From positions 248,001 to 312,000 of the forward strand of contig JALHMI010000006.1 of the NCBI GenBank assembly GCA_022844125.1: a stretch of DNA of 64,000 nucleotides. Reading direction: 5' to 3'. Of this stretch, positions 40,675 through 63,162 are shown piece by piece. The stretch's first letter is position 1. Each line of letters opens with the position of its first letter. A model generated the notes under the pieces. The model saw only the letters and a program-made list of their open reading frames with translations, searched no databases and was not told where the DNA came from. The position numbers and the translations under genes are program-made. This DNA is from Pirellulales bacterium (GTDB lineage Bacteria; Planctomycetota; Planctomycetia; Pirellulales; PALSA-1355).

Positions 40675-43521
40675 ATGCCACGTCGCAACTGCGTACGAGG
40701 GTCACGCGCCCGGAATTTCGCGTCGGCCACTCTGACTTTCGAGGTTCTCGAAATACGCCGGCCCCTGCATGCCGGGCACGGTGAAGACGAGGAGTGTACG
40801 ATCCCGGCCGCGCTAGAAGCAATTCCCGGTGATGAGGTCCTGCCGCTGGGGGCCGAGCCGCTCAACTCCCTCTCCAGCATCCCGGCTCTGAATAGTCTGC
40901 CCAGTGCTCCGGTCGACATCTACCTGGATTTCGATGGGCACTATGAAGAAGTTTGGGGCTCCTGGGGAAATATCACGACACCCGTTTACTCGCGTGATTC
41001 GGACTTCGGTTCCTTTAGCGACAGCGAGCTTGTGGCGATCCACGACATTTGGGCACAGGTGGCCGAGGACTTTGCTCCGTTCCACGTTAACGTGACGACG
41101 GTCGAACCGCCGAGTTTCGATGACGGCGTTGCGATGCGCGTTTCCATCGGCGGCGCTGGCGACTGGTACGGCAGCACCGTCGGCGGAGTGGGTTATGTCA
41201 ATAACTTCACGAGTTGGATCACCAACACCGTGTACGTGTTTTCAGCAAACCTTTCGGGTGGCAATCCCAAGCGCGTTGCGGAAGCCAGTTCACACGAAAC
41301 CGGTCACGGTTTTGGCCTCGAACATCAAAGCCAGTACAACGCCAGCGGCACGAAAGTCGCCGAGTATTACGCCGGGGCCAACGGCAAGGCGCCCATCATG
41401 GGCAACAGTTACGCGGCCACCCGCGGCCTGTGGTGGAACGGCCCAAACACGAACGGGCCGAATTCGATCCAGGACGACATGGCGCGGATTGCCCGGGCGG
41501 CAAACGGCTTCGGCTACCGGCCGGACGACCACGGCAACACGCCAGGCACAGCGACGCAACTGTCCGGAGCCGGGGGCGAGCTCACGGCCAGTGGCGTGAT
41601 CAGCACGACCAGTGACGCGGACTATTTCAGCTTCGAAACCGGTGCCGGTGAAGTGACACTCACCGTCACCGTCCCGCCCCACAACAATCTCGACGCTCGG
41701 CTTGAGTTGCGTTCGGCTAGCGACGATCTGATCCTGTTCGCGGCGCCTTCGAACAGCTTTGGCGCCACGCTGACGGCCAATCTGCAGGGCGGCAGCTACC
41801 GCGTCGTTGTGAAGTCTCAGGGCAACTATGGCGATGTCGGTCAGTATACGCTAACCACGGACGTGCTGGCCCCCTCAGTCGAAGGCGTCGTGTTTGCCGA
41901 TACCGATCGCGATGGGATGCGCGACGATGGCGAGGCCGGCATCTTCGGGGCGACGGTTTTCGACGACCGCAACGGCAACGGCGTGTGGGATGCGCAGCCG
42001 CAAATCACATTCACGGCGACTGACACGCCGCTGGCGTTTCCCGCAGTAGGCACAGCACGCTCGAAGATCAACATCCAGAATATGCCCGGCTCGATCGTGG
42101 ATCTCAACGTCAGGGTCACGCTCAGCCATCCGAACGTCGGGAATGTGCTCGTGGCCCTGATAGATCCTGCGGGAGTCACCACCACGCTGGTCGCTGATCT
42201 TCCCACCACGGGCACGTCGTTCACCAGCACCGTGTTTGACGATCAGGCGACGGGTTCGATCTACGGTGCGTCGTGGCCATTCACAGGCAGCTTTAAGCCG
42301 CTGGGAGAGCTGGCGCCGTTGATCGGAACGAGCCCCAACGGCGAGTGGCAACTCCTGGTCACGGACCTGACAGGGAGCGCGGCCGGTGTCATTGAGCACT
42401 TCGCCCTGGAAATTACTTCTTCCGTGGCTGAACCAGTTACGACCACGAATCCGTTTGGCCGCTACCTGTTCGCTTTCGCCGGAACGGGCGTGCATCGGAT
42501 TCGGCAGATGCCAGTCAACGGTTACGTCGTTGCAAATCCAAGCGGGGCCGTGCATGAGATCCAGGTCGAAGTTGGTTCGGCCTACACCGAAATGAATTTC
42601 GCCAATGTCACGCCGGGCGTTGTTGGTCGCTCGCTCTTTTATGACGGGTCAAAGTTCGACGGACTGATCCCGGGAATCGATCCGAGTAACGATCTGGCAA
42701 TCGCGACAGACAAGCAGGCCTACCGTGCCGGCAGTGGCCCCGCGACATTTGCCAATATCTCCAGCTATGTGCGCGGGATCAATGGCCTCATGATCGATGC
42801 CTTTGGGCTCGACAGTTCCATCTCGCTCGATGATTTCCAGTTTCGCACCGGCAACGACAGCGACCCTGACAACTGGCAGCCGGCGCCGCTGCCGATCGCG
42901 ATTACCGTGCGAGCCGGGGCAGGTAAGAACGGCTCTGACCGCATCGAGCTCGTCTGGGGTGATGACGCGGTCAAGAACGCGTGGCTGCTCATCACGCTGG
43001 AGGGCAACGATGCCTGGGGCGGATTTAACCGGGGAACAGGACTGGCCGCTTCGGACGTGTTCTATTTCGGCAGCCGGATCGGCGACACGGGTTCGGGGAC
43101 TGAAGAGGCTGCCATCACCAGCGCCGCCGACGAACTGGCGGTCCGGGCCAATCCCGGGATCAATCAAGGCGTGACGAGCATTTACGACTTCGATCGCAAC
43201 GGCGTCGTGAGCGCTGGCGACCAGTTGATCGCGCGAATGAATGCCGGGCTACTGACGAAGATTGATTTTCCAGGTTCCGGAACGCCGCTGGTCGCCAATG
43301 CCGTGGCGTCGGCTCTGGCAATCGCCGATCGTGACGAGCCGGCGAATGCGTTCCCCGTGCGCGAGCAATCTGTGTCGCGGGCTGAAGTCGCGTCGTTCCG
43401 CACGGCTGTCCGCAGCTTGCAAAGCCAGATGCGGCCCGCGATTGACCTGACGTTAGAAGTTGATCAGGACTTCGCGGAATCGGTGATCGGCGACGAGTTG
43501 CTCGACTCGCTGCTTGGCTGA
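40675..43521 (+). CDS. Large secreted zinc-metallopeptidase-like surface protein with PPC, P-like and dockerin-like parts
   Basis: The 948-aa protein begins MPRRNCVRGSRARNF and carries FEVLEIRRPLHAG (22-34), a variant of the planctomycete N-terminal LExRR surface-protein motif. A complete zinc site HExxHxxGxxH occurs at 207-217 (HETGHGFGLEH). Downstream are a pre-peptidase C-terminal-like domain (SDADYFSFETG), an SdrD/B-like segment (VEGVVFADTDRDGMRDDGE, about 400-440), a proprotein-convertase P-like domain (about 450-585), and a dockerin-like calcium motif YDFDRNGVVSAGDQ near residue 840. The mix suggests a cell-surface or secreted protease. The ATG at 40675 fits the surface-motif N-terminus. 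A terminator-like hairpin lies at its end. Confidence 0.88.
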   Translation: MPRRNCVRGSRARNFASATLTFEVLEIRRPLHAGHGEDEECTIPAALEAIPGDEVLPLGAEPLNSLSSIPALNSLPSAPVDIYLDFDGHYEEVWGSWGNITTPVYSRDSDFGSFSDSELVAIHDIWAQVAEDFAPFHVNVTTVEPPSFDDGVAMRVSIGGAGDWYGSTVGGVGYVNNFTSWITNTVYVFSANLSGGNPKRVAEASSHETGHGFGLEHQSQYNASGTKVAEYYAGANGKAPIMGNSYAATRGLWWNGPNTNGPNSIQDDMARIARAANGFGYRPDDHGNTPGTATQLSGAGGELTASGVISTTSDADYFSFETGAGEVTLTVTVPPHNNLDARLELRSASDDLILFAAPSNSFGATLTANLQGGSYRVVVKSQGNYGDVGQYTLTTDVLAPSVEGVVFADTDRDGMRDDGEAGIFGATVFDDRNGNGVWDAQPQITFTATDTPLAFPAVGTARSKINIQNMPGSIVDLNVRVTLSHPNVGNVLVALIDPAGVTTTLVADLPTTGTSFTSTVFDDQATGSIYGASWPFTGSFKPLGELAPLIGTSPNGEWQLLVTDLTGSAAGVIEHFALEITSSVAEPVTTTNPFGRYLFAFAGTGVHRIRQMPVNGYVVANPSGAVHEIQVEVGSAYTEMNFANVTPGVVGRSLFYDGSKFDGLIPGIDPSNDLAIATDKQAYRAGSGPATFANISSYVRGINGLMIDAFGLDSSISLDDFQFRTGNDSDPDNWQPAPLPIAITVRAGAGKNGSDRIELVWGDDAVKNAWLLITLEGNDAWGGFNRGTGLAASDVFYFGSRIGDTGSGTEEAAITSAADELAVRANPGINQGVTSIYDFDRNGVVSAGDQLIARMNAGLLTKIDFPGSGTPLVANAVASALAIADRDEPANAFPVREQSVSRAEVASFRTAVRSLQSQMRPAIDLTLEVDQDFAESVIGDELLDSLLG

Positions 43522-43550: not shown

Positions 43551-46500
43551 CTATTGCCAGGCTTCGGTCGGCCAGACAATCGCCGTGCCGTCCATGCTGC
43601 CGCTGAGCAGCGAACGTCCGTCCGGCGAGAAACCTACCGCAGTTACGGCCTGCTCGTGATATCTGAGCGTCAGCAATTCCTTACCCGCAGTTGGACCATT
43701 GCCGGCCGGATCGCCAAATTCGATCGGACTGGCGTCCCAGATTTTCACCAACCGATCGCGGCTGCCAGTGAGCGCCCGCTGTCCGCTGGGCGAGAACGCA
43801 ACAGCGCTCACTGAGTCCGTGTGACCAGCGTAGCGAACGAGTGGTGCGCCCGTGGCCACATCGAAGACGACCGCGACGCCATTGGCGAGTCCGGCGAGCA
43901 CGCGGGCGCCTGCCGGATCAAAGGCGATGGCCACCAACGATGCCTCGGCCTGCCAGGAGCCAATCGCGGCGCCGTCGGCCACATTCCACAGCCGCACAAA
44001 ACCGTCGGCCCCGGCGGTGATGATCTTCGTGCCGTCCGGCGAAAAGTCGGCAGCCAAAGGAGCTCGCAGATCGCCCGGTGGCAAGTGTTCGATTGCGTGA
44101 AGCACTTTGCGTGAGCGCCAGTCCCAGAGTCGAACCGTACCGTCCTCGCCGGCGGTGAGCAGCAAGTCGTCATCTGCTGGAGAAAACCGCGCGGCGGAGA
44201 TTGCGCCGGCGTGCTCGCTCGGAAGCTGTTGTTCGGCCAGCCCGGTGGCGACGTTCCAGATCTTGGCGCGGCGATCGCTGCTGCCGGTGACGGCAAATTT
44301 GCCGCTGGCCGAGAAGCTCGTTGCCGTGATGCCACTATGAGGTTTGAACGAGAGCTCAGGTTCATCGCCTCCGGTCGCCGACCACAGAGCGGCGCCATTA
44401 CCGCCGACGGCTAGCACCCCGCCTTGCGGCGCATCGACCGCGGACCAGATGCCTTCGCGATGCTGGCTCAGTTCGAGATAGGGCTTTCCGCCAGGCGCGA
44501 AGACCTCGCCCATCGCGAGCGCGTCGAAACGGCGCACGTGCCCGCCACCGTGGCCGGCCAACTGGGCATTGGATCCCGCAGCCAGCAGCGCGCTACCGTC
44601 GGTCGTAAAGGCAATTGAGGTCAGCGCGTCGTCTCCGCGATAGAGCTCGCCGATCACCGTGCCCTTCGTTGGATTCCACAACCGAAGCACCGACTTCGTC
44701 ACAGCGCCGGCCGTTTCCTCGGACAAAGTTGCCACCTGGTCGCCGCGCGGCGAAATGTCGATTGCCATTACCGGTGTATCGAACGCATCGCGCCGCGCGA
44801 TATCGCCATGGACCAGCATCGCGGGCAATTCGCGTCCCGTAGCCGTGTCCCACTGGGCGACCGTTCCATCCTTGCTGGCGGTGAGCAGCGTTCTGCCGTC
44901 AGGCATGAATTCCGAGTCGGTCATCGCAGAGGTGTGCGCTTTTAATCGGTGCACCGCCGCGCCGGTCGCTCGATTCCACAAAACGCCATGTCCGGCATCA
45001 TCGCCTGAGAACAGCAGATCGCCTCTCGGTGAGATCGCGACGGTCGTTACAATCGCGAGATGTCCCTGGCCGAACGTCGCGTCGGCCGGGGCAATTCGGT
45101 TGGCCGACTTACGGTCGGGGTCGAGTTGCCACAGCGCAAGCTGTGCTCTGGAGGAGAGATCTTCGGCGCTGCCCGTGTCGTCTTGACTCATCGCGGCCAG
45201 CACCCACTCGCCGTCGCGTGTGACTGCGATAGCCCCGTTGCGGCCTGTGTTTTCCAGCGTCATGAGTTGCGAGCCCGTGTTCGCGTCCCAGATGCGCGCT
45301 GTACGATCGCCTCCGGCCGTGAGCAGCCGGGCGCCATTCGCGAAGTATGCCGCCCTCGAAGTCAGAAAATCGTGCCCCTCGGCCAAGGTCGCCTGACGCA
45401 CGCCCGTCTCGCTGGCGAACACGCGGGCTGCATGGTCGCCGCCGGCAGTAATTACGCGGCTACCGTCGGGCGAGAATGCCGCTGCCAACACCGCATCGGC
45501 GTGGCCGGCGAGGGCAATCCCCTGCGGCGCGGGCCGATAGTCGACCAGATCCCAGAGCTTGATCTCGCCGTCCTGCCCGCCAGAGAAAACCTGCGAGCCG
45601 TCGGCCGCGATCGCGCAAGCTTGCACGGGGCGGCTGTGTCCGCGCAGTTCGGCATACGGCCTGCCGGTAGCAACATCCCATACGCGGATCGTGTTGTCGT
45701 CGCCGCCGGAGATGACGTACTCGCCGGTCGGAGCGAACTGCACGGTACGAACCGGACCGCGATGCCCCTCGAGCGCGCGGCTCGATTGCGGATTAAGTGG
45801 TTGACCGGTACTCACGAGCTCCGCCAGTTTCAGGTCGGCGATTTCTTCGGGTCGCCAAATGTGCACGCGTTTGTCGTATCCGGCGCTGGCGACTTGTCGG
45901 CTATCCGCAGAGAAGGCAACAGCGAACACGGCCCCTTGATGGCCGACAAACACCTTTTGCGGCTGTGGCTGTCCGGCTTGGGCTGCAAAAGCCCACACGA
46001 TCACGCGGCCGTCTTCGCCTGCCGTGGCAAGTTGCTTGCCGTCTGGAGCGAATCGTGCTGCGAACACGGGACCGTAATGTCCGCTCAGTGTCATGGGCGG
46101 CTGCGACGGATGGTCGAGCTGCCAGACAAGAGCCGTGTGATCATTGGCCGCCGAAACAAGCCACTTGCCATCCGCGGAAATGTCGAGGCCTTGAATGCGG
46201 CCAGTGTGCCCAGTAAGCTTGGACAACGGCCGCCCGTTATCGATTCTTAGTACGTGAATCGTGCCGTCAGCTGTGGCTACGGCCAGCCGATCGCCGGTGG
46301 GCGAGACAACCAGCGCGGATACGCTCTGCTGCAGTTCAGTTCTCCAACGATCATCACCGCTCTTGCGATCCCAGGCCCGGACGTGGCCGTCGTCGCCGGC
46401 GGCGATGAGCAGGTTCGCGGTCGGGGCAAAGGCCACGCCGCGTACTGTCCCGCTGACCGGAAAGTCGCGCCCACCAGTGGCCAGTCGGCGCAGGTACCCC

Positions 46501-48557
46501 CATTCCCAGTCGCGTAGTGAGACCGGCTGGCAGGCTTCGAGCAGCGCCGTCACGGTATCAAAAGCGTTCTCTTCGAGCTTGGCCGCGGCCATCCCGATGC
46601 GTGCCCCGTAGGCCGCCCGCTCTTCGCCTTGCCGCGCGATGACAGCTTCCGCTTCCTTAGTCTCGGCGACTTGGCGGGCCTGTTCGGCTTCCTTTTCGGC
46701 TGCGACCGCAGCCTCGCGGGCCGTCTCGGCCCTGTCTCGCTGGGTTTCGGCGTCTCTCTTCGCGTCCAGCGCGTTCTGGCGCTCGGTGGTCGCGATCTCG
46801 GTTTGCTTTACGGCAACCTTTCGCTGTTCTTCGGCCTCATTGCGTTGCTTGGTAGCTTCCGCTTCGTTCTGTTGTGCGATGATTCTCTGTTCGTCGGCCA
46901 ACCGCCGCTGCTCGGCCTCGCGATTCATGGCCGTCGTCACCATCACCAGCGCGACTGTAATCGTGGCCACGACCGCCGCGGCCAGGCCGGCGGCGATGCG
47001 CTTGAACCTCGAGAGCCACTTTTGTCGAGCTGCCCGCTCGCGTTGGGCAGCCTGTAATTCTTTCTGCAATGTTGCGTGTTGCGGGATCGCCGGATCGAGC
47101 AGCGACGCCCCCAGTTCGAAGTCGCCGCGCTGCTTGGCCGTCGTGGCGTAAGCCAGGCGAGCTTCGTTCACGCCCGTCCGCGCCCGCGCGTTGCCGACCC
47201 ACAGTGCCAGAGCCTCTTCAAACCCGAACACGGCCTTCGAGTATCGCTGGTAGTCACCGCTGGTGCGGGCTTGCGAGAACTCGGAGTCGGCCCGCGTCGA
47301 AAGCGCGATGCTTTCCATGTGCGAGTGGTATTCGCGGATCGCGGTCTGAAACTCCTGCACGCTCGCGAAGCGATCTGTCGGAGCCGTGGCCATTGCTTTA
47401 TAGGCAATGTCCATCAGTTCCCCCGACTTGTCCGTCGCCTGGATCTCGTTCCGCGCGGCAGCCATCAGGCAGTCTTGCGCGGTCTTGCCGTGATGCGGAC
47501 GGACGCCGGTTACGATCTCGAAGAGCAGGGCGCCCAGCAAGTAGATGTCGCACGGGGGCCCAATCGATTCGAACGGACCGGTAACCATCTCGGGGGCCAT
47601 GTAGGCCGGCGTGCCACCCATGCTGTCGGCATGCGTGACGAATTCGGTGTGCTTGAAGCTGGAAGTGGCCAGCGCCAGCCCCCAGTCCATCACCAGCACC
47701 TCGCCGAAGTCGCCCAGCATCACGTTCTCGGGCTTCAGATCGCGATGCACGACGCCGTTAGCGTGTGCGAAAGCAACTGCATCGGCCACTTTCATCAGCA
47801 CTTCCAGGTTCTCGGACAGCGACTTCGCTCGAATGGCATGCGACCACGGCGTCCCCTGCACACGCTTCATCGAATAGAACAGAGCGTTGCTCTCGTCCGT
47901 GCCAAGCTCGTAGATCGGCACGATATTCGGGTGATCGAGGTCGCCGGTCACGACCGCTTCGGAGAGGAATTTTTCGCGCCGTTCGGGATTCGCCGCCACT
48001 TGCGGGCGAATCATCTTCACAGCCACCAGACGATCGACCGAAGCCTGGCGCGCGGAGTACACGACGCCCATCCCGCCTTTGCCAATAACCTGCAATAATT
48101 CGTAGTCGGCACCGACGGCTCCCATCGTCGTTGAGCGTGGCCGGGCGATTTCCTCGGGCGATCGCAATCCGCGCAAGTTCACCACCAGCGATGAGCCGAC
48201 GCCGCTCGCCGATTGGCCCTCGACCTTCAGCGAAGTACCTTCGGTTACGTTGTCGCTCATCACCCCTTGCCAAGTGTTGGTGATCAACTCCACGCTTTGC
48301 CGCGAGAGCTTGCGAGGCGCGATGTTCACCGAGCGATGCGTGCCGCCAGAAAACTCGATCGTTGGTTGTGGACCTTTGTCCGTGAGTGCGCCTGGCGGAA
48401 TATCACCGGGCCCGAACTCCGCCGTGACGTCCAGAGTCGGTGCGTGCGGACCCTCGGTGGCGGTGCCGGGCGCTTGGAGCATGTGCCCGCACTTAGGGCA
48501 TTTGCCCTCGGCATTGGGGTCCTTCAGAATCGCTTTGCAACCGGGGCAAATCAGCAT
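43551..48557 (-). CDS. Zinc-ribbon Ser/Thr kinase with membrane helix, coiled coil and WD40 repeats
   Basis: The 1668-aa protein has an N-terminal zinc ribbon (C4, C7, C20, C23) and then a kinase domain: G-loop GKGGMG (159-164), K181 in AVKM, H271-R-D273. The magnesium loop is DWG (291-293) in place of DFG, a variation known in planctomycete-type kinases. A membrane helix lies at about 520-542, followed by a Glu/Ala/Arg-rich coiled coil to about 665. WD40 repeats start near residue 715 and continue to the end, many closing with the W-D pair. Topology suggests a cytoplasmic kinase with an outward beta-propeller sensor. It follows the PKD-repeat gene by seven bases, so one transcript is likely. 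Confidence 0.93.
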   Translation of the reverse strand: MLICPGCKAILKDPNAEGKCPKCGHMLQAPGTATEGPHAPTLDVTAEFGPGDIPPGALTDKGPQPTIEFSGGTHRSVNIAPRKLSRQSVELITNTWQGVMSDNVTEGTSLKVEGQSASGVGSSLVVNLRGLRSPEEIARPRSTTMGAVGADYELLQVIGKGGMGVVYSARQASVDRLVAVKMIRPQVAANPERREKFLSEAVVTGDLDHPNIVPIYELGTDESNALFYSMKRVQGTPWSHAIRAKSLSENLEVLMKVADAVAFAHANGVVHRDLKPENVMLGDFGEVLVMDWGLALATSSFKHTEFVTHADSMGGTPAYMAPEMVTGPFESIGPPCDIYLLGALLFEIVTGVRPHHGKTAQDCLMAAARNEIQATDKSGELMDIAYKAMATAPTDRFASVQEFQTAIREYHSHMESIALSTRADSEFSQARTSGDYQRYSKAVFGFEEALALWVGNARARTGVNEARLAYATTAKQRGDFELGASLLDPAIPQHATLQKELQAAQRERAARQKWLSRFKRIAAGLAAAVVATITVALVMVTTAMNREAEQRRLADEQRIIAQQNEAEATKQRNEAEEQRKVAVKQTEIATTERQNALDAKRDAETQRDRAETAREAAVAAEKEAEQARQVAETKEAEAVIARQGEERAAYGARIGMAAAKLEENAFDTVTALLEACQPVSLRDWEWGYLRRLATGGRDFPVSGTVRGVAFAPTANLLIAAGDDGHVRAWDRKSGDDRWRTELQQSVSALVVSPTGDRLAVATADGTIHVLRIDNGRPLSKLTGHTGRIQGLDISADGKWLVSAANDHTALVWQLDHPSQPPMTLSGHYGPVFAARFAPDGKQLATAGEDGRVIVWAFAAQAGQPQPQKVFVGHQGAVFAVAFSADSRQVASAGYDKRVHIWRPEEIADLKLAELVSTGQPLNPQSSRALEGHRGPVRTVQFAPTGEYVISGGDDNTIRVWDVATGRPYAELRGHSRPVQACAIAADGSQVFSGGQDGEIKLWDLVDYRPAPQGIALAGHADAVLAAAFSPDGSRVITAGGDHAARVFASETGVRQATLAEGHDFLTSRAAYFANGARLLTAGGDRTARIWDANTGSQLMTLENTGRNGAIAVTRDGEWVLAAMSQDDTGSAEDLSSRAQLALWQLDPDRKSANRIAPADATFGQGHLAIVTTVAISPRGDLLFSGDDAGHGVLWNRATGAAVHRLKAHTSAMTDSEFMPDGRTLLTASKDGTVAQWDTATGRELPAMLVHGDIARRDAFDTPVMAIDISPRGDQVATLSEETAGAVTKSVLRLWNPTKGTVIGELYRGDDALTSIAFTTDGSALLAAGSNAQLAGHGGGHVRRFDALAMGEVFAPGGKPYLELSQHREGIWSAVDAPQGGVLAVGGNGAALWSATGGDEPELSFKPHSGITATSFSASGKFAVTGSSDRRAKIWNVATGLAEQQLPSEHAGAISAARFSPADDDLLLTAGEDGTVRLWDWRSRKVLHAIEHLPPGDLRAPLAADFSPDGTKIITAGADGFVRLWNVADGAAIGSWQAEASLVAIAFDPAGARVLAGLANGVAVVFDVATGAPLVRYAGHTDSVSAVAFSPSGQRALTGSRDRLVKIWDASPIEFGDPAGNGPTAGKELLTLRYHEQAVTAVGFSPDGRSLLSGSMDGTAIVWPTEAWQ

Positions 48558-48564
48558 GCGTTAG

Positions 48565-51500
48565 TTACCTTCGCCACAGGATTCGATGGGCTTTGGTGAG
48601 CGGAAGCGCGTCGATGGGTTTGCGCCGCAACGATTTGCGAAACCGACCCAAGGGCAGAGTCGCAGTAAGGCCTGCCGCCACGAACTGGCTTGCGGCGGCC
48701 TCGTCGTCTGCGGGTTCCAGTCGTGCGTCTGGCAGTCGCCTCTCGATTGAACTGGTTTCACTCTCAGCAGGGCCTGAATCGTTGACACCTCGCGGAGCCG
48801 GAATGTCGACGGGAACCGCGTCGTCAGTGCGACCAGCAGTGTTACGTTCGGCCGCCGGCGCAACATCGTCCTCGAGCTGAATCGCGCGACCCTGTCGCAC
48901 AACCACGTCGACCACCAGCCGCTCAATGCCGTCAGGTTGAATCTGGTAGATCCGGTAGTGACCGTCCGGCAGCCGGCGAAACAGAGTGCGCAGATTGTCG
49001 AGCACCTCGTCGTCGAGTGGCTGTTCGCTCCGCTGATCTTCCTGGCCGTCGGGCGTAACGACTCGTAGTACGAGTCGCGGTTCGGCGCCCGCCACAGCGG
49101 CTGCCCGCAAACCCTTTAAATCCGAACGCACGATGCCGGGCGGAGGTGGCAGCACGGCGCCGCCGGCGGGAGACGATGGCGGCGGAGCCGGAGTTCCACC
49201 TCCAGCACCCCCTGGCGGAAACACGATGATCGTCGGTCGCAGCACAAACACGGTTACTTCGAACTGCGCGACCGCAAAGCCGCCGTCATCATCGGACAGC
49301 GTAACCGTTACCGTGTACTCGCCAGGGGCGCCATACAAGTGTGAGGAGTCAAACGATCCAGACGTTCGCAGTCCAACCGCGCCCGGCACGTCGATCGTCG
49401 CGGGCCCATTGCTATTCGGCGTGCCGTCTCCCCAATTCACGCTGAATGCGAATCGCTCGGTCGTCTCGCCGCCAACATTCAGCAGGTTGTCGAAGCCTGG
49501 GTCGTCGAAGAACCCCAGGTCGTTGATGGTCAGCGTCTCGGTCAGCGGAATGCTGACGTCGCCGGTGCCCAGGACAAGCGTCGGGGCCACGTTGTTGACC
49601 GTGATGGTGAACGTGGCGGTGCCCACGCCGCCGTCGTCGTCGATCGCCTTGACTGTGACCGTGTAGACTCCGTTGTCGGCATAGGTGTGGCTGCCGTCAA
49701 ACGAGCCCTGCATCGGTACACCGGGCGAGCCGAACGTGTCGATCGCGGCATTGCCGCTCTGCGTCGCGGTACCGTCGCCCCAATTGATCGAGTAAGTGAA
49801 GCGCTCTGTCGTGGCGCCGCCGGGATTCAGCGGGTTGTCGAAGCCAGGATCAGTGAACTGCCCGATGTTCGGCAGCGAGATGAGCTGCCCTTCGTCAACG
49901 ATTCGATTGCCGGGCGCGACGACCGTCGGAGCTACATTGTTGACAGTCACTTCGAACTGGGCGGCCGTCACGCCGCCATCGTCGTCGGTCACGGTGATCG
50001 TGACGGTGTAGACGCCATTGTCCGCATAGATGTGTGAGCCGTCGAAGGAACCTTGCGTCAGAACCCCGGGGCTGCCCGGCACATCGATTGTCGGCAGTCC
50101 GGCTTCGCCCGGCGAGCCATCACCCCAGTCGATCGTGTAGCTGAACTGCTCGGTTGTTTCACCGCCCAGGTTCAGCGGATTGTCAAAACCTGGATCGGTG
50201 AACTGGGCAATGTTCGCGACGACCAGCAGAGCGCCTTCATCCGTTTGACGGGGAGCGACGACAAGTGTTGGAGCCACATTGTTGACCGTGACCTCGAACG
50301 ACTGCACGGCCATGCCGCCATCGTCGTCAACGACTGTGACGGTCACCGTGTAGACGCCGTTGTCGGCGTAGATGTGCGAGCCGTCGAACGAGCCCTGGGT
50401 TGGTACGCCGGGCCCGCCGGGGATGTCGATAGTCGGTGCCCCGGCCTGCACGGGCGTGCCGTCACCCCAGTTGATGCTGTAGGTGAACTGTTCGACCACC
50501 TCGCCGCCAACATTCAGCGGGTTGTTGTAAGCGGGGTCAGTGAACTGGCCGATGTTCGTGATCGAAAGCAGCTCGCCTTCATTAACGACCTGATCCGGCG
50601 CCACGATGAGCGTTGGCGCGACGTTGTTCACAGTGACTTCGAACGTCTCGACGGCCATGCCGCCATCGTCGTCAACGACTGTGACGGTCACCGTGTAGAC
50701 GCCGTTGTCAGCGTAGATGTGCGAGCCGTCGAACGAGCCCTGGGTTGGTACGCCGGGCCCGCCGGGGATGTCGATAGTCGGTGCCCCGGCCTGCACGGGC
50801 GTGCCGTCACCCCAGTTGATGCTATAGGTGAACTGTTCGACCACCTCGCCGCCGATGTTCAGCGGGTTATTAAAGCCGGGGTCAGTGAACTGGCCGATAT
50901 TCGTGATCGAAAGCAGCGCCCCTTCATTAACGACCTGATCCGGTGCAACCGTGAGCACCGGCGCAACGTTGTTGACCACGACCTCGAACGACTGCATGGC
51001 CATCCCGCCATCGTCATCGATCACCGTTACCGTGACGGCGTACACGCCGTTATCGGCATAGATGTGCGAGCCGTCGAACGAGCCTTGGGTTGGTACACCA
51101 GGCCCGCCGGGGATATCGATTGTCACCGGGCCTGATTGCGTCGCGGTACCGTCACCCCAGTTGATCGCATAGGTGAACTTCTCGCTCGTTTCACCGCCGA
51201 TGTTCAGCGGATTGTCAAATCCCGGATCGGTGATCCGTCCCAGGTTCGTGATCGAGAGCAGCGCCCCTTCATTAACGACCTGATCCGGCGCCACGACGAG
51301 CGTTGGCGCGACATTGTTCACGGTCACTTCAAACGTCTGCACGGCGACGCCCCCATCGTCGTCCGCCAGCGTCACGGTCACCGTGTACACGCCGTTGTCG
51401 GCGTAGATGTGCGAGCCGTCGAACGAGCCCTGGGTTGGTACGCCGGGCCCGCCGGGGATGTCGATAGTCGGTGCCCCGGCCTGCACGGGCGTGCCGTCAC

Positions 51501-53136
51501 CCCAGTTGATGCTGTAGGTGAACTGTTCGACCACCTCGCCGCCAACATTCAGCGGGTTGTTGTAACCGGGGTCAGTGAACTGGCCGATGTTGGCAATTGC
51601 CAGTACCGAACCTTCATTCACCACCTGATCGGGCGCAACAGTCAGCACCGGCGCAACGTTGTTAACCACGACCTCGAACGACTGCATGGCCATCCCGCCA
51701 TCGTCATCGATCACCGTTACCGTGACGGCATACACGCCGTTATCGGCATAGATGTGCGAGCCGTCGAACGAGCCTTGGGTTGGTACACCAGGCCCGCCGG
51801 GGATATCGATTGTCACCGGGCCTGATTGCGTCGCGGTACCGTCACCCCAGTTGATCGCATAGGTGAACTTCTCGCTCGTTTCACCGCCGATGTTCAGCGG
51901 ATTGTCAAATCCCGGATCGGTGATCCGTCCCAGGTTCGTGATCGAGAGCAGCGCCCCTTCATTAACGACCTGATCCGGCGCCACGACGAGCGTTGGCGCG
52001 ACATTGTTCACGGTCACTTCAAACGTCTGCACGGCGACGCCCCCATCGTCGTCCGCCAGCGTCACGGTCACCGTGTACACGCCGTTGTCGGCATAGGTAT
52101 GGCTGCCATCGAATGAGCCTTGCGTCGGTGTGCCGGGCCCGCCGGGCACATCGATCGTCGCTGGACCCGAGTTGGCCGGCGTGCCGTCGCCCCAATCGAT
52201 CGAGTACGTAAACTTCTCGCTCGTTTCGCCGCCGATGTTCAGTGGATTGTCGAAGCCGGGATCGGTGAACTTTCCAATGTCCATGATCGAGAGCAGGGCG
52301 CCCTCGCTGGTCACCTGGTTTGGCGCGACGGTGAGGGTGGGGGCGACGTTGGAGACGCTCACTTCGAACTGTGCGCCGCTGGAGTCGCCGAAACCTTCGC
52401 CTTCGAAGACTGCGGTGATCGTGAGCGTAACCACGTAGGTGCCGTTGTCGGCATAAGTGTGCGCGCCGTCAAACGATCCCAGCCGCGGGGAGCCGTCGCC
52501 GCCGAAGTCGTCGATTGTCGCAAAGCCGGAATCGACGGGCGTGCCGTCACCCCAGTCGATTGTGTAGTGATACGTGTTCGTGGAATTCCAGGGATCGACG
52601 AACGTGCCGATATCCTCAATCGAAAGGTTCGCGCCCTCGCTGGTGTGCTGATCGCCGACCGCGGCGAGTGTCAGCCAAGCCTCCTCGGCAACTTGCGCCG
52701 CGAGCGGAGTGGCAACCGCCGTATCGACCGCGGCGTCGGCGCTCGAATCGCCAAGTGGCGACACGCTGCGGTTTTCACTCTCGATAAGGTTTTCGGCTGC
52801 GGGACCTCTCGTGCCCTGTTCGCCGTTCTCGCTACCTGGCGGATTGCCGCTAACCACGCGATCGCCCGGATCGATCGGTTCGCGGGTGGCCTGGTCGGTT
52901 CCGAGCGGGGTCGCCGGGTCGGCGCTCTTGGCGGTTTGCTCGACTTGCTCGATGCCGCTCGCCGCCAGGGCTTGGGCCATCGCCAAAGCCGCGCTGGCTG
53001 AAAGCACACGACGCTCTTCGAGCGGACTGAGCTCGAGCTGACCGACTCCGTCCGTTGGCAGCGGCACACTCGAACGAACGCGCCAGCCACTACGCAGGGC
53101 GGAACCCAGGTTCGCTAGCACTCGACGAGCAGACAT
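48565..53136 (-). CDS. Giant surface protein with ten PKD-like repeats and LEERRVLS N-terminal motif
   Basis: The 1523-aa protein starts at MSARRVLANLG (ATG 53136, with AAGGA upstream). Residues 39-48 read LEERRVLSAS, a planctomycete surface-protein motif. Ten PKD-like beta-sandwich units follow, recognised by recurring WGDGT and GSFDGSHIYADNGVYTVTV. The central units repeat with a 115-residue period and are nearly identical. The C-terminal region holds a Pro/Gly-rich linker (PPPSSPAGGAVLPPPPG) and a domain with PDGHYRIYQIQPDG. No enzymatic residues are evident. It is likely a cell-surface adhesion or structural protein. It precedes the zinc-ribbon/kinase/WD40 gene by seven bases. Confidence 0.92.
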   Translation of the reverse strand: MSARRVLANLGSALRSGWRVRSSVPLPTDGVGQLELSPLEERRVLSASAALAMAQALAASGIEQVEQTAKSADPATPLGTDQATREPIDPGDRVVSGNPPGSENGEQGTRGPAAENLIESENRSVSPLGDSSADAAVDTAVATPLAAQVAEEAWLTLAAVGDQHTSEGANLSIEDIGTFVDPWNSTNTYHYTIDWGDGTPVDSGFATIDDFGGDGSPRLGSFDGAHTYADNGTYVVTLTITAVFEGEGFGDSSGAQFEVSVSNVAPTLTVAPNQVTSEGALLSIMDIGKFTDPGFDNPLNIGGETSEKFTYSIDWGDGTPANSGPATIDVPGGPGTPTQGSFDGSHTYADNGVYTVTVTLADDDGGVAVQTFEVTVNNVAPTLVVAPDQVVNEGALLSITNLGRITDPGFDNPLNIGGETSEKFTYAINWGDGTATQSGPVTIDIPGGPGVPTQGSFDGSHIYADNGVYAVTVTVIDDDGGMAMQSFEVVVNNVAPVLTVAPDQVVNEGSVLAIANIGQFTDPGYNNPLNVGGEVVEQFTYSINWGDGTPVQAGAPTIDIPGGPGVPTQGSFDGSHIYADNGVYTVTVTLADDDGGVAVQTFEVTVNNVAPTLVVAPDQVVNEGALLSITNLGRITDPGFDNPLNIGGETSEKFTYAINWGDGTATQSGPVTIDIPGGPGVPTQGSFDGSHIYADNGVYAVTVTVIDDDGGMAMQSFEVVVNNVAPVLTVAPDQVVNEGALLSITNIGQFTDPGFNNPLNIGGEVVEQFTYSINWGDGTPVQAGAPTIDIPGGPGVPTQGSFDGSHIYADNGVYTVTVTVVDDDGGMAVETFEVTVNNVAPTLIVAPDQVVNEGELLSITNIGQFTDPAYNNPLNVGGEVVEQFTYSINWGDGTPVQAGAPTIDIPGGPGVPTQGSFDGSHIYADNGVYTVTVTVVDDDGGMAVQSFEVTVNNVAPTLVVAPRQTDEGALLVVANIAQFTDPGFDNPLNLGGETTEQFSYTIDWGDGSPGEAGLPTIDVPGSPGVLTQGSFDGSHIYADNGVYTVTITVTDDDGGVTAAQFEVTVNNVAPTVVAPGNRIVDEGQLISLPNIGQFTDPGFDNPLNPGGATTERFTYSINWGDGTATQSGNAAIDTFGSPGVPMQGSFDGSHTYADNGVYTVTVKAIDDDGGVGTATFTITVNNVAPTLVLGTGDVSIPLTETLTINDLGFFDDPGFDNLLNVGGETTERFAFSVNWGDGTPNSNGPATIDVPGAVGLRTSGSFDSSHLYGAPGEYTVTVTLSDDDGGFAVAQFEVTVFVLRPTIIVFPPGGAGGGTPAPPPSSPAGGAVLPPPPGIVRSDLKGLRAAAVAGAEPRLVLRVVTPDGQEDQRSEQPLDDEVLDNLRTLFRRLPDGHYRIYQIQPDGIERLVVDVVVRQGRAIQLEDDVAPAAERNTAGRTDDAVPVDIPAPRGVNDSGPAESETSSIERRLPDARLEPADDEAAASQFVAAGLTATLPLGRFRKSLRRKPIDALPLTKAHRILWRR
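50951..51400 (-). repeat. First copy of a nearly identical 450-base segment in the PKD array
   Basis: The segment is almost identical to 51641-52090, at an offset of 690 bases (two 345-base units), with only scattered substitutions (for example GGCG/GGCA near 51040). Identity stops sharply at 51401. Confidence 0.85.
51641..52090 (-). repeat. Second copy of the nearly identical 450-base segment in the PKD array
   Basis: It matches 50951-51400 at an offset of 690 bases. The sharp loss of identity after 52090 marks the edge of the duplicated or gene-converted segment. Confidence 0.85.
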
Positions 53137-53449
53137 GCACGCTGTTCCTTGGCCGCGCATGCGCGGCAGGGAGAGAAGGCGCCGTAATGGCTAAGAACCC
53201 ATTATTTCTAGCCAGTCGAGCGGCCGTCAAACTTTGACCGAACAACTGCGCAGCCGCGATCTGGGCAATTCCGGCTGAATACCCTGGTGTTCGTGGTTCA
53301 GGCGGTATTTATTGCCTGCGCCAGCCTTGCCGGTTGAATCGAAAATCCTAGAGGTAACGATTCCGGGGCGACGAAACGAACTGATAACCGCCACCCTGGG
53401 TGAGTGCATCGCTCCGGGACCGCACGCGGTGCTCCGTGAGGACTTTGCC
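53137..53449. other. Divergent control region between the PKD gene and the Cys-rich lipoprotein gene
   Basis: No gene is visible. It contains the minus-strand promoter candidate for the PKD operon. For the plus-strand gene, a weaker TTGCCG (53327-53332) and TAGAGG (53349-53354) pair has a 16-base spacer. Confidence 0.55.
53201..53230 (-). promoter_or_regulatory. Promoter candidate for the PKD-kinase operon
   Basis: On the minus strand TTGACG (53230-53225) and AATAAT (53206-53201) are spaced by 18 bases. A transcript would start near 53194 and leave a leader of about 58 bases before the ATG at 53136. Confidence 0.45.
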
Positions 53450-54361
53450 ATGCGACGCCTGACCCTGGCACTACTCGTTTCAGCCATCGCCTGCAGCGGC
53501 TGTGCTACGGGCATGCGGTCGGCGGTTCCGGCCACCGCGGCAGGGGGGCTCGCCGAGGTAGTTGCCTCGGACGAAACGCCAACCGCTATTGCAGCTTCGA
53601 CGATCAGCGACAGCGAGCCGGTGACTGCACACCCGCGACCGCTAGCGAAGAAGCCGAGCGGCGTGAAAGTCACGCAATCTGTGGCGCCGCCGAAGAATAA
53701 GGCAGTCCCCGGGAAAGAAATCTCCGGTCTATCAGAACAGCGATCCGATGCGGCTCACGATTCTTTGCGGGCGCGTTCCGCAGGGTATCAGCAACCCGAA
53801 CTCGAGCCGTTCGATCCCGCGGAGACGTTCGCGCCCTCGGAGGAGATCCTCACTCCCGCTCCCGGCGCTCCAACTCCGTTCAAGCCCAAGTCCGAGGACG
53901 AGGCGAAGCTCGATCGCTTCAGTCGTGACATCCTCGACGTGGAAGTCGACATTCGTCCGACTGCCGGGGAAATGCCCGAAAATCGTGGCGCCCAGCGCTT
54001 CGCCGATCAACCGGTGATCGACGAGAGTCTGCCGAGTGGCGAGCCGGCGGACGTGTTGTGTGCCTATACGCCTTGGACGATCTGTTACCGTCCGCTGTAC
54101 TTCGAAGACATCGCGCTGGAGCGCTACGGCCAGAACGTTGGATGCCTTCAGACCGGCCTGTCGGGTGTGAGGTTCTTCGGTTCGATCGCGGCGCTGCCGT
54201 ACAAGATGACCCGCCGCCCGCCACGCTCGTGCGAGTGCTCGAACGGCTTCAGTCGCCCGGGCGATTGTCCACTCCCCGGCTATGGCAACCGCCGCCTGGA
54301 ACTGGATGCCGCACTGATGGAAGCCGCCGCGATCACGGCCGTGGTGTATATCATACCGTAG
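53450..54361 (+). CDS. Putative lipoprotein with conserved Cys-rich C-terminus
   Basis: The 303-aa protein starts at MRRLTLALLVSAIACSGC, a short lipoprotein-like signal whose lipobox is imperfect. A long Pro/Ala/Glu-rich, low-complexity region follows. The compact C-terminal domain (about 200-300) has CAYTPWTICYRPLYFEDIALERYG, then RFFGSIAALPYKMTRRPPRSCECS and GDCPLPGYG. I recall similar cysteine-bearing blocks in uncharacterised planctomycete proteins. It ends three bases before the stop of the convergent M50-HlyD gene. No function can be assigned; an envelope component is likely. Confidence 0.78.
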   Translation: MRRLTLALLVSAIACSGCATGMRSAVPATAAGGLAEVVASDETPTAIAASTISDSEPVTAHPRPLAKKPSGVKVTQSVAPPKNKAVPGKEISGLSEQRSDAAHDSLRARSAGYQQPELEPFDPAETFAPSEEILTPAPGAPTPFKPKSEDEAKLDRFSRDILDVEVDIRPTAGEMPENRGAQRFADQPVIDESLPSGEPADVLCAYTPWTICYRPLYFEDIALERYGQNVGCLQTGLSGVRFFGSIAALPYKMTRRPPRSCECSNGFSRPGDCPLPGYGNRRLELDAALMEAAAITAVVYIIP

Positions 54362-54364
54362 CGA

Positions 54365-56578
54365 CTAGCCGCGGAATGTCTGCTTGAGCCACCGCATCAA
54401 CCGCGAGCCTGTGGACTGCGGCGCGACGGCAATCTTCGCCCGGCCATGCATCCGCGCGATCAGGTGTGCGGGTTTGCCGTCAAACTTTACGCGGGCCTGG
54501 TACCAGGTGTCGATGGGCCGCGCCCGTCCGTCCCGCTCTTCGCGCGCGGGCAGATCACCCGCCGCGGCCAGCTCACGAGGCATCACGTCCAGGTCGAGCC
54601 GGGCGATTTCCACGATCTCTCCTTCCAGCACCGCGTTCGGCAGATGATCTAGCCGAATCGTCACCTGCTGGCCGGCTTGCACAAGTTCGACGTCGCGCTG
54701 GTCGATGTGCAGCGTCGCTTCGAACTCATCCGGCTCGCCCACCAGGCATACGAGGGTTCCGGTCGAGAGCATCGCACCCAGGTTTTCGGAGTCGAGCGGC
54801 GTCCCCGTCCAGCGAAAAAGTGCGTGTGGTTCGGCGGGCTCGCGGGGCACATTGGGCGGGGGCAGCACGACGCCAACGCGAGGCGCGACAAGCAACAGCC
54901 GCTGGGCATCGCGCGTCGTCTGCGTCAACCGGCGCTCCAGATCGTCCAGCGCCGCTTGCGCTGCAGGGAGTTCTGCTCCGGCGGTTCCTCCCTGCAAGCG
55001 ACGCGCGTTCAGATTCGCAACACGCAACTGCTGTGCATTACGCTCACTCTCGAGCCGGGCCAGTTCGAGCGTAACCGTCGGGTTCTCGAGCCTTGCGAGC
55101 TGCTGCCCTGGTTGCACTTGAGCGCCAACCGCGATCGCATCGGCTAACGTCCCATCAACCGTCACATACACCCGCTCGGCGTTCGCGTACTCGAGCACCA
55201 TCGGCGCCGTAACGTTCCGCGGAATCGGCACCCAGGCGATCGCCGCCAGCAGGCCCGCAACCAGCAAGGCCGACAGCATCACACGCACGGGCGCGAATCG
55301 CCCGCGCCGCAGGGGATCGCCTGTCCAACGAGCAAGCCCGACGACGGGCGGCCAGACGATTCCGCCCAGCACAACACCGGCCAGCAGCAGAACCAGCACT
55401 TCCAGATGCAGTGGTCGCAGAATACGATCGATCGTCCATAGGACGAGGCCGATGAGCACAAACCGATAGATCCCCGCCGCGACCGCATATAGCACCAGCA
55501 GCCACGGGTGACGCGACTTCGATAGCCTGTCCGGCGGCAGTTCGATGCCCGCGCCGTAACGCGCCAGAGCGCGCTGTAGCGCTGCCGAGGCTTCAGCCCG
55601 CAGGTTCGGCACCGCGACCAGGTCACTGAGGATGAAGTAGCCGTCGTAGCGCATCAGCGGGTTGCCATTGAGCAGCAGGGTTCCCAGCGAGCAGATCAGG
55701 ACGACATTCAGGCACAATGCATTGAAAGTTCCAGGAGCGCTGAAGTACCACAGCAGCGTGCAAAGCGATGCGAGTATCAGCTCGACGTATATTCCCGCCG
55801 CAGAGATCGCTATCCGTTGCCACTTGCTCGGCAGCATCCAGGCTTCGGACACGTTGCAATACAAACACGGCGTGAACACGAGCAGCATCGCGCCGATCTC
55901 GTGACATTCGCTCCCATACTTACGAGCGGCGATGGCGTGCCCCAACTCGTGAAGCATCTTCACGCCTGCCAGCGCCAGCGCCAAGAGCGGCAGGTTCGAC
56001 GCCGCCAAAATCGTCTCCACTTCAGGCAGCCTGGCCTCGATCGTGCGAAACTCGAGCGCCACGAGCACGAGCGCCGCGATCGCCAGCAAAACTGCTCCGG
56101 CATATGCCGCTGGCGTGAACAGCCAGCTCGCCAGCGGATAGATCGCGTCCAGCAGCCGCTTGGGACTCACGCCCGGAAAGCGGATCGCCAGGACGCTCGC
56201 CAGCGACTCGAGCCGGGCCCGGCGGCGTTTCTCATGCTTCCGCAGAGCGAGCTGCCGACCTTGTCCTGGGGCGTCCGAATGCGCCAGGCCCAAGCGATGT
56301 AGCGCCGCCAGGTAGCCTTGCACCTGTTCGATCGAAACTCGCCGTGGCGCCAGAGCTCCGTCCAGTTTTCGTTTCAAACGTTCGACACTCGACTCGCCAT
56401 CGAGCATCCTCAGCAGCGCGTATTCTTCCTCGCCCAAATGAAAGTACTTGAGCGAAATCGGATCCTTAACAGCCCAGTAGCGATGCGCCCCATATTGCTG
56501 CGGTCGAAACTCCAAGTCGCCGCGCACCTGCAGCGCCAGTGGGCGTGCAGCGGCATCTTCGACCTGTGAAGCGATCAT
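54365..56578 (-). CDS. PqqD-like domain - M50 site-2-protease-like - HlyD fusion protein
   Basis: The 737-aa protein has a winged-helix-like N-terminus (about 25-105; KYFHLGEEEYALLRMLDGES) resembling PqqD/RiPP-recognition domains. Then comes a multi-pass M50 metalloprotease region: H210-E-L-G-H214 and the second motif NGNPLMRYDGY (304-314) with D312. CLYCNVSEAWMLPSKWQR is typical of peptide zinc metalloproteases of the YydH kind. After more helices, a HlyD-type adaptor starts near residue 455 (barrel-sandwich, coiled coil, beta-barrel). Its ATG overlaps the stop of the HlyD gene (ATGA). It is the last gene of the three-gene minus-strand operon. Peptide processing coupled to export is the best inference. 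Confidence 0.9.
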   Translation of the reverse strand: MIASQVEDAAARPLALQVRGDLEFRPQQYGAHRYWAVKDPISLKYFHLGEEEYALLRMLDGESSVERLKRKLDGALAPRRVSIEQVQGYLAALHRLGLAHSDAPGQGRQLALRKHEKRRRARLESLASVLAIRFPGVSPKRLLDAIYPLASWLFTPAAYAGAVLLAIAALVLVALEFRTIEARLPEVETILAASNLPLLALALAGVKMLHELGHAIAARKYGSECHEIGAMLLVFTPCLYCNVSEAWMLPSKWQRIAISAAGIYVELILASLCTLLWYFSAPGTFNALCLNVVLICSLGTLLLNGNPLMRYDGYFILSDLVAVPNLRAEASAALQRALARYGAGIELPPDRLSKSRHPWLLVLYAVAAGIYRFVLIGLVLWTIDRILRPLHLEVLVLLLAGVVLGGIVWPPVVGLARWTGDPLRRGRFAPVRVMLSALLVAGLLAAIAWVPIPRNVTAPMVLEYANAERVYVTVDGTLADAIAVGAQVQPGQQLARLENPTVTLELARLESERNAQQLRVANLNARRLQGGTAGAELPAAQAALDDLERRLTQTTRDAQRLLLVAPRVGVVLPPPNVPREPAEPHALFRWTGTPLDSENLGAMLSTGTLVCLVGEPDEFEATLHIDQRDVELVQAGQQVTIRLDHLPNAVLEGEIVEIARLDLDVMPRELAAAGDLPAREERDGRARPIDTWYQARVKFDGKPAHLIARMHGRAKIAVAPQSTGSRLMRWLKQTFRG

Positions 56579-57489
56579 CGGCTCGCCGGCTCCTCGCGTG
56601 TGAGCTGCTCGCCGTCGTCGGATAAGATCGTCAGCGAACCATGCAGTCCGGGGCGCAGTGCCAGGTCGGCGTTCTCAATTTCGGCCCAAAACCGAACCTG
56701 GCCATTCACCGGGTCGACCTCGGGACTGACAAATGCGATCTTGCCAGCGTATTGCACGGGCTTTTGCCCTTGGGTCACGGTGAGCGTCACTCGGCGGCCC
56801 ATCAGCGAGCCATCGAAAGCATCGGCGCTGACCAGCCCCTCAGCCTTCAACCGATCGAGCCGCAAGATGCGCACGATCGGTTCGCCAGGTTCAACCCACT
56901 CGCCCGGTTGTTTAAGCACTTGAGCCACGAAGCCGGCCAGCGGAGCCAAAATCTGGCGTTGGCTGATCGCATGTTCGGCCGTGGCAAGGTCGTTTTGTTT
57001 GAGTGCGACGGCGGTTTGTGCGAGTTCGTGTTCCAATTCTGCTTGTTCGATCTCCAGTCGCGTCTTGTCGGCCACTAGTTTTAGTTGATCGAGTTCTGAA
57101 GCCGTGACGCTCTCGGCTAGTCGAGCGCTCGAGTCGAGTGCGCGTCGCAATTCCGCGGCCGCGACTTCCGCACTCTTCTTGGCAAACCGCACCTTCACGT
57201 CGCTCGCCGCTAGCTTCCTGGCGCCGGCCAGTTCAATCTCGGCCTTACTTCTATCGAAGGCGGGCGTGCGGTCGTCAATCTTGCCAAGCGAGTCTCCCGG
57301 AGCCACCATTGCGCCCTCGCGAACCGAAAGCTTCTCGAGCGTTCCCGCCTCGCGTGCAGGCACCTCGACTTGTTCCAGCAGTTTGACCAGCGCCGAGGGG
57401 ATCTCGATCTCGGCTGCACGCGCGCTAGTCGCAGCAGTCAGCAGCAATCCACTCGCGACAATCACAATGGCAATCGAGCGCATATGCAT
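56575..57489 (-). CDS. HlyD-family periplasmic adaptor protein
   Basis: The 304-aa protein starts at ATG 57489, two bases after the upstream stop; an ATG two codons later is also possible, while the longer frame is an artefact. The N-terminus is an export signal (RSIAIVIVASGLLLTAATSARA). Then come a lipoyl/barrel-sandwich half (VEVPAREAGTLEKLSVREG), an alpha-helical hairpin (about 90-180), the second lipoyl half (ILAPLAGFVAQVLKQPGEWV) and a beta-barrel (SADAFDGSLMGRRVTLTV). This is the membrane-fusion protein layout. It sits between the GAF-HlyD and M50-HlyD genes and is translationally coupled to the latter. Confidence 0.92.
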   Translation of the reverse strand: MHMRSIAIVIVASGLLLTAATSARAAEIEIPSALVKLLEQVEVPAREAGTLEKLSVREGAMVAPGDSLGKIDDRTPAFDRSKAEIELAGARKLAASDVKVRFAKKSAEVAAAELRRALDSSARLAESVTASELDQLKLVADKTRLEIEQAELEHELAQTAVALKQNDLATAEHAISQRQILAPLAGFVAQVLKQPGEWVEPGEPIVRILRLDRLKAEGLVSADAFDGSLMGRRVTLTVTQGQKPVQYAGKIAFVSPEVDPVNGQVRFWAEIENADLALRPGLHGSLTILSDDGEQLTREEPASR

Positions 57490-57491
57490 GG

Positions 57492-59510: not shown

Positions 59511-59518
59511 AGAGTTTC

Positions 59519-62229: not shown

Positions 62230-63162
62230 TCAGCAGATCGAGTTGCTCCTACGTCTGCTGCGATTCTGTCGTAACCAGAACCAAACACCTGCCGCTCCCA
62301 GTCCCGCAAGAAACACGCTGCCGGGCTCCGGTACCACGGCAAGCGCTAACGTATAGTCTCCGGCGGCCACGTGGGCGCCGGTAAAGTTTGCATCGCCCAC
62401 GCCCGTCACCCCGATCTTCACTCGGCCCAGCAAGTCGGCCGTGCCGGTGAGGGTTGGAATCGCGTCGAAGGCACTCGTCTGTGCAATCCGCGCGTTCGCC
62501 GCATCGTATAGCGCGAGCAGTCCCGCGAACTCGCCCGCGAACGTGGCAGTAAATTCTTGAAACGGCGCGAGTCCCGTAAACACCCAGAAGTCGAGTGAGT
62601 CGCCCGTGCCCGGCCCGATCACGTTGTTCAGCGTGATGTCAGCCGTGTAGCCCTCCCAGTTCGGGTTTTCCGGGTCCGGCGAGACCGCCGGGTCGAGCCA
62701 CTCGGTGTCGGACGTCATCGGCGAGAGTTCATCGTTTTGCCACTTCGAAAGGCTCGGGACCAGGCTTCCGCCCGGATCGCGCACGTCGAGATACCAGGCG
62801 TACTTGCCGGACTCGAGATGCAGATCCGCAAAGGCGACGTCGGCGCCGCCGGTAATCTGAAAATAAAGGGAACCATCAGAGCGTAGTGGTACGCCGATCA
62901 ACTGACTGGCGAAGCCGTTGCCCAAGGGACTGCTGTTATCGTCGACAAGCTGCAAGGTGGTGAACGATGGATCGAAAATGCCCAGCCGCGTGTCGGGGCG
63001 CCCCGGCGTCCCATCCAGGCTATCGTTCACGAACAGTGTTCCGCCCGGCAGAATCGTGGCCGTGGGCGGCGTGTTGTTCGGCTCGGCCGCGCGTGCAGCG
63101 ATCGCGGATAAAACCGCCACGCTGAACGCGAGTGCCAGGGCTTGTCGTCGTACTCGTTGCAT
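62230..63162 (-). CDS. PEP-CTERM sorted secreted protein of unknown function
   Basis: The 310-aa protein starts at MQRVRRQALALAF (ATG 63162), giving a signal peptide that ends at AIAARA. The longer frame upstream adds a non-signal Arg/Thr-rich segment. The body is beta-rich, with DPSFTTLQLVDDN, SGKYAWYLDV and ITLNNVIGPGTGDSLDFWVF, resembling the pre-peptidase-like or DVUA0089-type secreted folds. The C-terminus is a PEP-CTERM signal: VVPEPGSVF, a hydrophobic stretch, then RQNRSRRR. Exosortase-dependent surface attachment is expected. No catalytic motif is seen. Confidence 0.85.
   Translation of the reverse strand: MQRVRRQALALAFSVAVLSAIAARAAEPNNTPPTATILPGGTLFVNDSLDGTPGRPDTRLGIFDPSFTTLQLVDDNSSPLGNGFASQLIGVPLRSDGSLYFQITGGADVAFADLHLESGKYAWYLDVRDPGGSLVPSLSKWQNDELSPMTSDTEWLDPAVSPDPENPNWEGYTADITLNNVIGPGTGDSLDFWVFTGLAPFQEFTATFAGEFAGLLALYDAANARIAQTSAFDAIPTLTGTADLLGRVKIGVTGVGDANFTGAHVAAGDYTLALAVVPEPGSVFLAGLGAAGVWFWLRQNRSRRRSNSIC

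Follow-up and report, generated by a model that had tools for sequence, protein, structure and literature searches.

In the window analysed here, a stretch of 64,000 nucleotides covering positions 248001-312000 of contig C6 in the 6.44-Mb source genome (G000), the gene for a giant PKD-repeat protein lies directly ahead of the gene for a receptor-like Ser/Thr kinase, and comparison across the order, Pirellulales (Planctomycetota), makes it almost certain that this pairing is conserved. A sequence-only reading of the same DNA had described the giant PKD frame and a frame joining zinc ribbon, kinase, transmembrane segment and WD40 repeats, seven bases apart on one strand, and both were found as described. 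Judging from the neighbouring genes of relatives, that reading recognised part of the unit: a small envelope protein is encoded divergently beside the pair, and an export set frequently accompanies them.

Pairing of the giant and kinase genes

The giant protein (1531 aa; ORF, Pfam) is encoded at 48565..53160 on the minus strand, with its start at 53160 or at 53136, the second in-frame ATG of the ORF. A gap of 7 nt separates its stop from the ATG (48557) of the kinase gene (1668 aa; 43551..48557, minus strand; ORF, Pfam). The kinase is single copy in the source genome: searched against its own genome, it matched itself with 3737 bits, and the next best place scored 152 bits, in the kinase domain only. 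No plasmid copies of the kinase were detected at E 1e-100 in the one collection searched.

Pairing was evaluated from both sides. In a kinase-blind search, the giant was used as query against 296 genomes of the order, of which 33 were hit, including the source genome, and 34 stretches were taken from the other 32. The kinase was located directly 3' of the giant, on the same strand, in 25 of the 34. The remaining nine comprise four stretches that stop inside the giant gene or a short way past it (L038, L039, L063, L064) and five that contain PKD giants with neither the constant C-terminal domain (CTD) described below nor an adjoining kinase (L053, L055, L066, L067, L069). The kinase-side search of 146 genomes yielded 32 places in at least 30 genomes, a lower bound because only three candidates per genome were scored. 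At 18 new kinase places (a count leaving out the place G032:C585), a CTD-bearing giant was found directly upstream in 14 and none in three, whereas L133 has no upstream sequence. Upstream of the kinase, L141 shows a 965-aa ORF without CTD, L142 a 4489-aa giant with an LEERCVL start but no CTD, and L143 no giant. Loci obtained with the kinase do not constitute an independent test of pairing from the giant side, and the kinase-blind counts were kept apart.

The pooled non-redundant set, window included, comprises 46 CTD-bearing giants, 44 of them with at least 500 nt of sequence beyond the gene. The kinase adjoins 43 of these 44 evaluable giants; the single miss, L237, has a weak CTD score and 603 nt beyond the giant. 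Conversely, a CTD-bearing giant precedes 43 of the 46 kinases with at least 600 nt upstream (47 kinases in all). Two loci in G031 and G290, chosen by their exporter and small protein and the only ones of that kind read further, are not included in the 43/44 count; their giants also end in the CTD and are followed by the kinase. Neighbourhood conservation, which the sequence-only reading had named as a check on its pair, is thus borne out in the pooled set and at these two loci. The paired kinase of G031 is followed on the same strand by another, smaller kinase-like ORF (377 aa; L296 11571-12704, plus strand).

As a control, 13 kb stretches were inspected around 20 of the 29 other kinase rows of the source genome, a WD40-only row on C7 and weaker rows being omitted. 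No PKD gene accompanies any of the 20 kinases within these stretches; at one of them (L202), an ORF of at least 800 aa lies upstream on the same strand within 1.5 kb. The idea that planctomycete kinases commonly follow giant genes was discarded on this own-genome control. One of the stretches (L197; G000:C4:296000-309000) carries a 3624-aa open frame upstream of another kinase, on the opposite strand.

The spacing makes a single transcript for giant and kinase likely at the source locus. A scan of 48300..48900 gave no sigma-70-like promoter and no terminator, a weak negative since shuffled sequences average 0.1 and 0.5. The kinase start could be estimated from the zinc ribbon in 34 of the 43 pairs, among which the gap between the two genes ranges from -1 to 402 nt, being at or under 50 nt in 14; a shared transcript is less certain in these relatives.

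Constant and exchangeable parts of the two proteins

The kinase sequence displays a CPxC..CPxC zinc ribbon and the motifs VAVK and HRDLKPEN, with DWG replacing DFG, and its protein kinase domain (Pfam Pkinase) spans residues 152-370 (47448..48104, minus strand). It is separated by a transmembrane segment at about residues 521-542 (46932..46997, minus strand) from a region with 13 WD40 stretches (Pfam); a second, weaker hydrophobic call falls at residue 1553, within the propeller part. Lysine and arginine are commoner on the kinase side of the segment in 29 of 32 kinases. In two of the three exceptions the segment had been picked inside the kinase domain, and the third is a tie. On this charge pattern, the WD40 part is predicted to lie most likely outside the inner membrane, so the outward propeller proposed earlier is favoured, as a prediction, over a cytoplasmic one.

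The WD40 ectodomain (43569..46469, minus strand; Pfam, structure model) was modelled from 20 sequences, with a mean pLDDT of 86.9 and a pTM of 0.70. The model contains 85 strands, read as a predicted 21 blades forming three propellers, preceded by a 117-residue helix (model residues 2-118; 46572..46922, minus strand) modelled with low-to-moderate confidence (pLDDT about 50-80 along most of its length). An alpha helix rises 0.15 nm per residue, so that this one would measure about 17 nm. As expected, Foldseek matches of the ectodomain were WD40 propeller proteins.

The giant protein contains nine PKD stretches (Pfam) in a repeat region with approximate limits 49366..52638 (minus strand), where some relatives carry other repeats. 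Near its N-terminus, residues 47-53 (53002..53022, minus strand) read LEERRVL, an LExRRxL motif that is present near the N-terminus of 39 of 40 complete giant relatives; in the same stretches it occurs in 15 of 931 other ORFs of at least 400 aa, several of the 15 being cut giants. An NCBIfam domain for such N-termini bears the name LEPR-XLL; five giant N-termini gave no NCBIfam match at E up to 10, in a library in which the presence of the LEPR-XLL model is unconfirmed.

Towards the other end lies the CTD (48877..49077, minus strand), which comprises about 75 residues with the pattern LPDxHYxIY..RLVxDVxVR. Its predicted fold, a high-confidence part of a model with a mean pLDDT of 66, has two strands followed by a helix and three further strands. 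The CTD had no NCBIfam match and none reported above a Pfam cut-off; in a Pfam scan of 17 members, one matched, at E 0.011, a family that looks unrelated. In structure comparison the best Z was 4.8, with transthyretin over 57 residues, and the best Foldseek E was 0.055. Pfam and structure comparison thus identified no known relative of the CTD, which does not amount to a new fold. The last 40 residues (48568..48687, minus strand) form a basic tail, with a net charge of +5 or more in 41 of 46 giant relatives.

Pfam scans were made of the repeats of four relatives whose PKD score is low or nil and which all keep the paired kinase. Cadherin-like repeats above the Pfam cut-off take the place of PKD in L137; L130 gave a transthyretin-like match above the cut-off and L128 a cadherin match below it, and no repeat family was recognised by Pfam in L134. 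Across the giants, the constant parts are the LExRRxL N-terminus, the CTD and the basic tail, and the repeats appear to be exchangeable. The PKD units were discarded as the kinase-facing part, since the repeats change in relatives while the kinase persists.

Distances between corresponding parts were compared over 19 loci by partial rank correlation with 500 permutations. CTD distances followed those of the ectodomain (partial 0.37, 2/500 permutations as high) and of the kinase domain (0.32, 3/500) beyond those of the M50 protein (-0.11) and the small protein (0.06) encoded nearby. The ectodomain tracks M50 too (0.46, 0/500). These values mildly favour a partnership of giant and kinase; tight linkage by itself could also yield them.

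The small envelope protein and the export set

Divergently from the giant gene, 53450..54361 (plus strand, ATG at 53450) encodes a small envelope protein of the family SP349, with a lipobox-like start, a PLYFEDxxxERYG core and no Pfam or NCBIfam match. The family is present upstream of the giant in 37 of 39 loci with enough sequence. In L132 the small-protein frame overlaps the giant frame, outside the interval used for this count, and in L057 the small protein is located some 15 kb away on the same contig (L224). It was rejected as a marker of the giant/kinase locus alone: from 202 relatives, 80 loci were kept, and 21 of them have a CTD-bearing giant. A lipobox as a family trait was likewise set aside, the crude pattern giving few convincing cases among 36 relatives with uncertain starts. 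Long frames with the same core were seen in Rhodopirellula and relatives (L242, L244, L253, L266, L270, L281, L288 and others), where they stand apart from the export trio and from the giant/kinase pair.

Next to the small protein, an export trio is encoded on the minus strand: an M50-HlyD protein with the motifs HELGH and NPLMRYDGYF (54365..56578), a HlyD-family adaptor (56575..57564) and a GAF-HlyD protein (57492..59510). A TolC-like outer membrane efflux protein (OEP) follows on the plus strand (59749..62136), and beside it lies a gene for a PEP-CTERM protein (62230..63258, minus strand). In loci with room for them, M50-HlyD was found in 25/34, HlyD in 20/29, GAF-HlyD in 18/25 and the TolC-like gene in 14/19; L128, L129, L130 and L225 are among the loci with an intact pair and no exporter in the fetched stretch. 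Pfam scans of the seven genes from 43551 to 62136 revealed no ABC domain, and the locus encodes no ATPase. For the M50 N-terminus, a PqqD/RRE-like domain was considered and dropped, NCBIfam NF050149 matching weakly (E 0.026) and Pfam giving nothing alike.

At a cut-off of E 1e-60, M50-HlyD relatives were detected in 270 of the 296 genomes. Twenty loci of a second type were picked from the list of these relatives; their 20 stretches contain the trio but lack any member of the small-protein, TolC-like, giant and kinase families described here. In an M50 tree of 59 rows, the 20 second-type loci form one clade with 100/100 support; a further row, L139, was labelled second-type in error by a 9 kb rule. 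A second SecA_DEAD match was obtained in 35 of 36 genomes examined. That of G000 lies on contig C12 and the locus on C6, in separate neighbourhoods, and in G033 and G104 the second SecA_DEAD is about 4 kb from the second-type trio.

A possible partner for a receptor-like kinase

In the explanation that we tentatively prefer, the conserved locus would supply an exported giant of the envelope together with a receptor-like kinase dedicated to it. The HlyD/M50/channel set may export the giant, with ATPase power coming from elsewhere, perhaps from the unlinked short SecA-like protein. The giant's repeats would then point outward, and its CTD would remain in the envelope, within reach of the propellers. 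The kinase may sense whether the giant is made, stalled, anchored or loaded, and phosphorylate cytoplasmic targets, with the result that the surface is adjusted. That the kinase senses the giant at all we put at slightly under an even chance. What it reads is more likely the CTD or the export state than the PKD units, because the repeats vary while the N-terminal motif, the CTD and the basic tail persist. A bolder and less likely reading combines these elements into a receptor kinase with its own encoded giant partner, in which three propellers on a long helical stalk read the CTD, the repeats are exchangeable, and export relies on a dedicated M50/HlyD/TolC-type machine without an ABC transporter.

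Somewhat unlikely, yet the closest competitor, is a kinase that serves as assembly or quality-control partner, its propellers holding the CTD during export or anchoring and its phosphorylation gating the exporter, with no outside signal involved. A constant CTD beside a constant ectodomain and the frequent presence of the exporter in the same locus fit this role, against which stand the several loci with an intact pair but no exporter in the stretch. Mere co-expression, in which the kinase responds to some other ligand and regulates the surface through its targets, without giant and kinase ever touching, appears unlikely. Adjacency indicates linkage rather than contact, and gaps of up to 402 nt allow separate control in some relatives; nevertheless, the pairing persists in 43 of 44 cases despite changing giant repeats, and CTD distances correlate with those of the kinase but not with those of M50 or the small protein.

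In the form given by the sequence-only reading, the giant's PKD units are the target bound by the propellers. Both proteins are large, repetitive and likely on the same side of the membrane. However, the four scanned low-PKD giants, four out of four, carry other or unrecognised repeats and yet keep the kinase, and the five PKD giants without CTD have no adjoining kinase, which makes such binding quite improbable and the PKD-propeller contact an unlikely candidate for the conserved one. Of the surface-sensing pair proposed in that reading, the association of a conserved surface-type giant with a membrane kinase therefore stands, and the PKD units as propeller target, being replaced where the kinase stays, do not. 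A cytoplasmic WD40 part, with the kinase as an inside scaffold, is very improbable: WD40 proteins of other organisms are mostly found inside the cell, but a single hydrophobic segment lies here between the kinase and WD40 parts, with positive charge on the kinase side in the great majority of kinases.

The locus has partial parallels in known systems. In systems of the LapA type, a giant adhesin, type I secretion and a signalling protein of the envelope occur together. The present locus is similar in its giant repetitive protein, its HlyD and TolC-like parts and its envelope signalling protein, but differs in having an M50 protease and no ABC transporter in the locus, and a Ser/Thr kinase instead of a c-di-GMP receptor. 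With classical type I secretion it shares the HlyD adaptor and the TolC-like channel, again without an ABC transporter in the locus, although one may be encoded elsewhere.

The following comparisons refer to the available portions of the papers cited. Planctomycete transmembrane Ser/Thr kinases with WD40 arrays predicted to be periplasmic, a prediction that also argues against an inside scaffold, were described by Odelgard et al. (2024; PMC11032199). Our kinase resembles them in its inside kinase domain, single transmembrane segment and C-terminal WD40 array, and differs in being distinct, single copy and linked to one particular giant; the main text of that paper does not use the words PKD, operon or neighbour. 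In seven planctomycetes, the neighbours reported for WD40 genes are kinases, DUF1501 and sigma-70 factors (PMC5587647). A HlyD/Peptidase M50/GAF-HlyD locus with a secondary SecA_DEAD, whose role was called unknown and whose parts can be unlinked, was reported by Kamneva et al. (2015; PMC4452313). Here, too, GAF-HlyD, HlyD and M50-HlyD occur together, sometimes with a TolC-like channel and with no ABC transporter, whereas the trio is joined to small protein, giant and kinase, and SecA_DEAD is not in the locus. An LExR-type export motif at the N-terminus of planctomycete surface proteins (Studholme, 2004, as cited in PMC8567305) offers a further comparison: the giants, too, are very large and repetitive and have LExRRxL near the N-terminus, and they differ in sharing a constant CTD and a kinase neighbour.

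A full-text search of open-licence papers found none on the giant/kinase pair or the locus. The kinds of parts are already known, and their union with a constant CTD was not found in the open-licence literature. Planctomycetes have many WD40 membrane kinases and giant surface proteins, neither with a named partner in the available portions of the literature consulted. The locus supplies candidates for a partner pair, an export machine and a contact domain, which renders both the sensing by the kinase and the role of the HlyD/M50/GAF locus reported in 2015 directly testable. If the proposal is true, the exchange of repeats against a constant CTD would amount to a coat whose outer repeats can be renewed with no change in the inside read-out.

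Several other genes in the window were recorded. Converging on the kinase gene, 40675..43521 (plus strand) encodes a protein of 948 aa that has a P-domain and, at its N-terminus, the motif LEIRRPL; a relative of this protein occupies the same place in G001. A 1197-aa protein encoded at 32597..36190 (minus strand) combines a protein kinase domain (14-234) with a tubulin-like domain (PF13809, 359-649). An FHA-EAL protein (36197..37369, minus strand) adjoins a receiver-GGDEF-CBS protein (37595..39004, plus strand), and the two may form a c-di-GMP pair beside the kinase-tubulin gene. Finally, a 2296-aa TPR-repeat ORF (15676..22566, plus strand) is followed by a DUF1583/DUF1581 protein.
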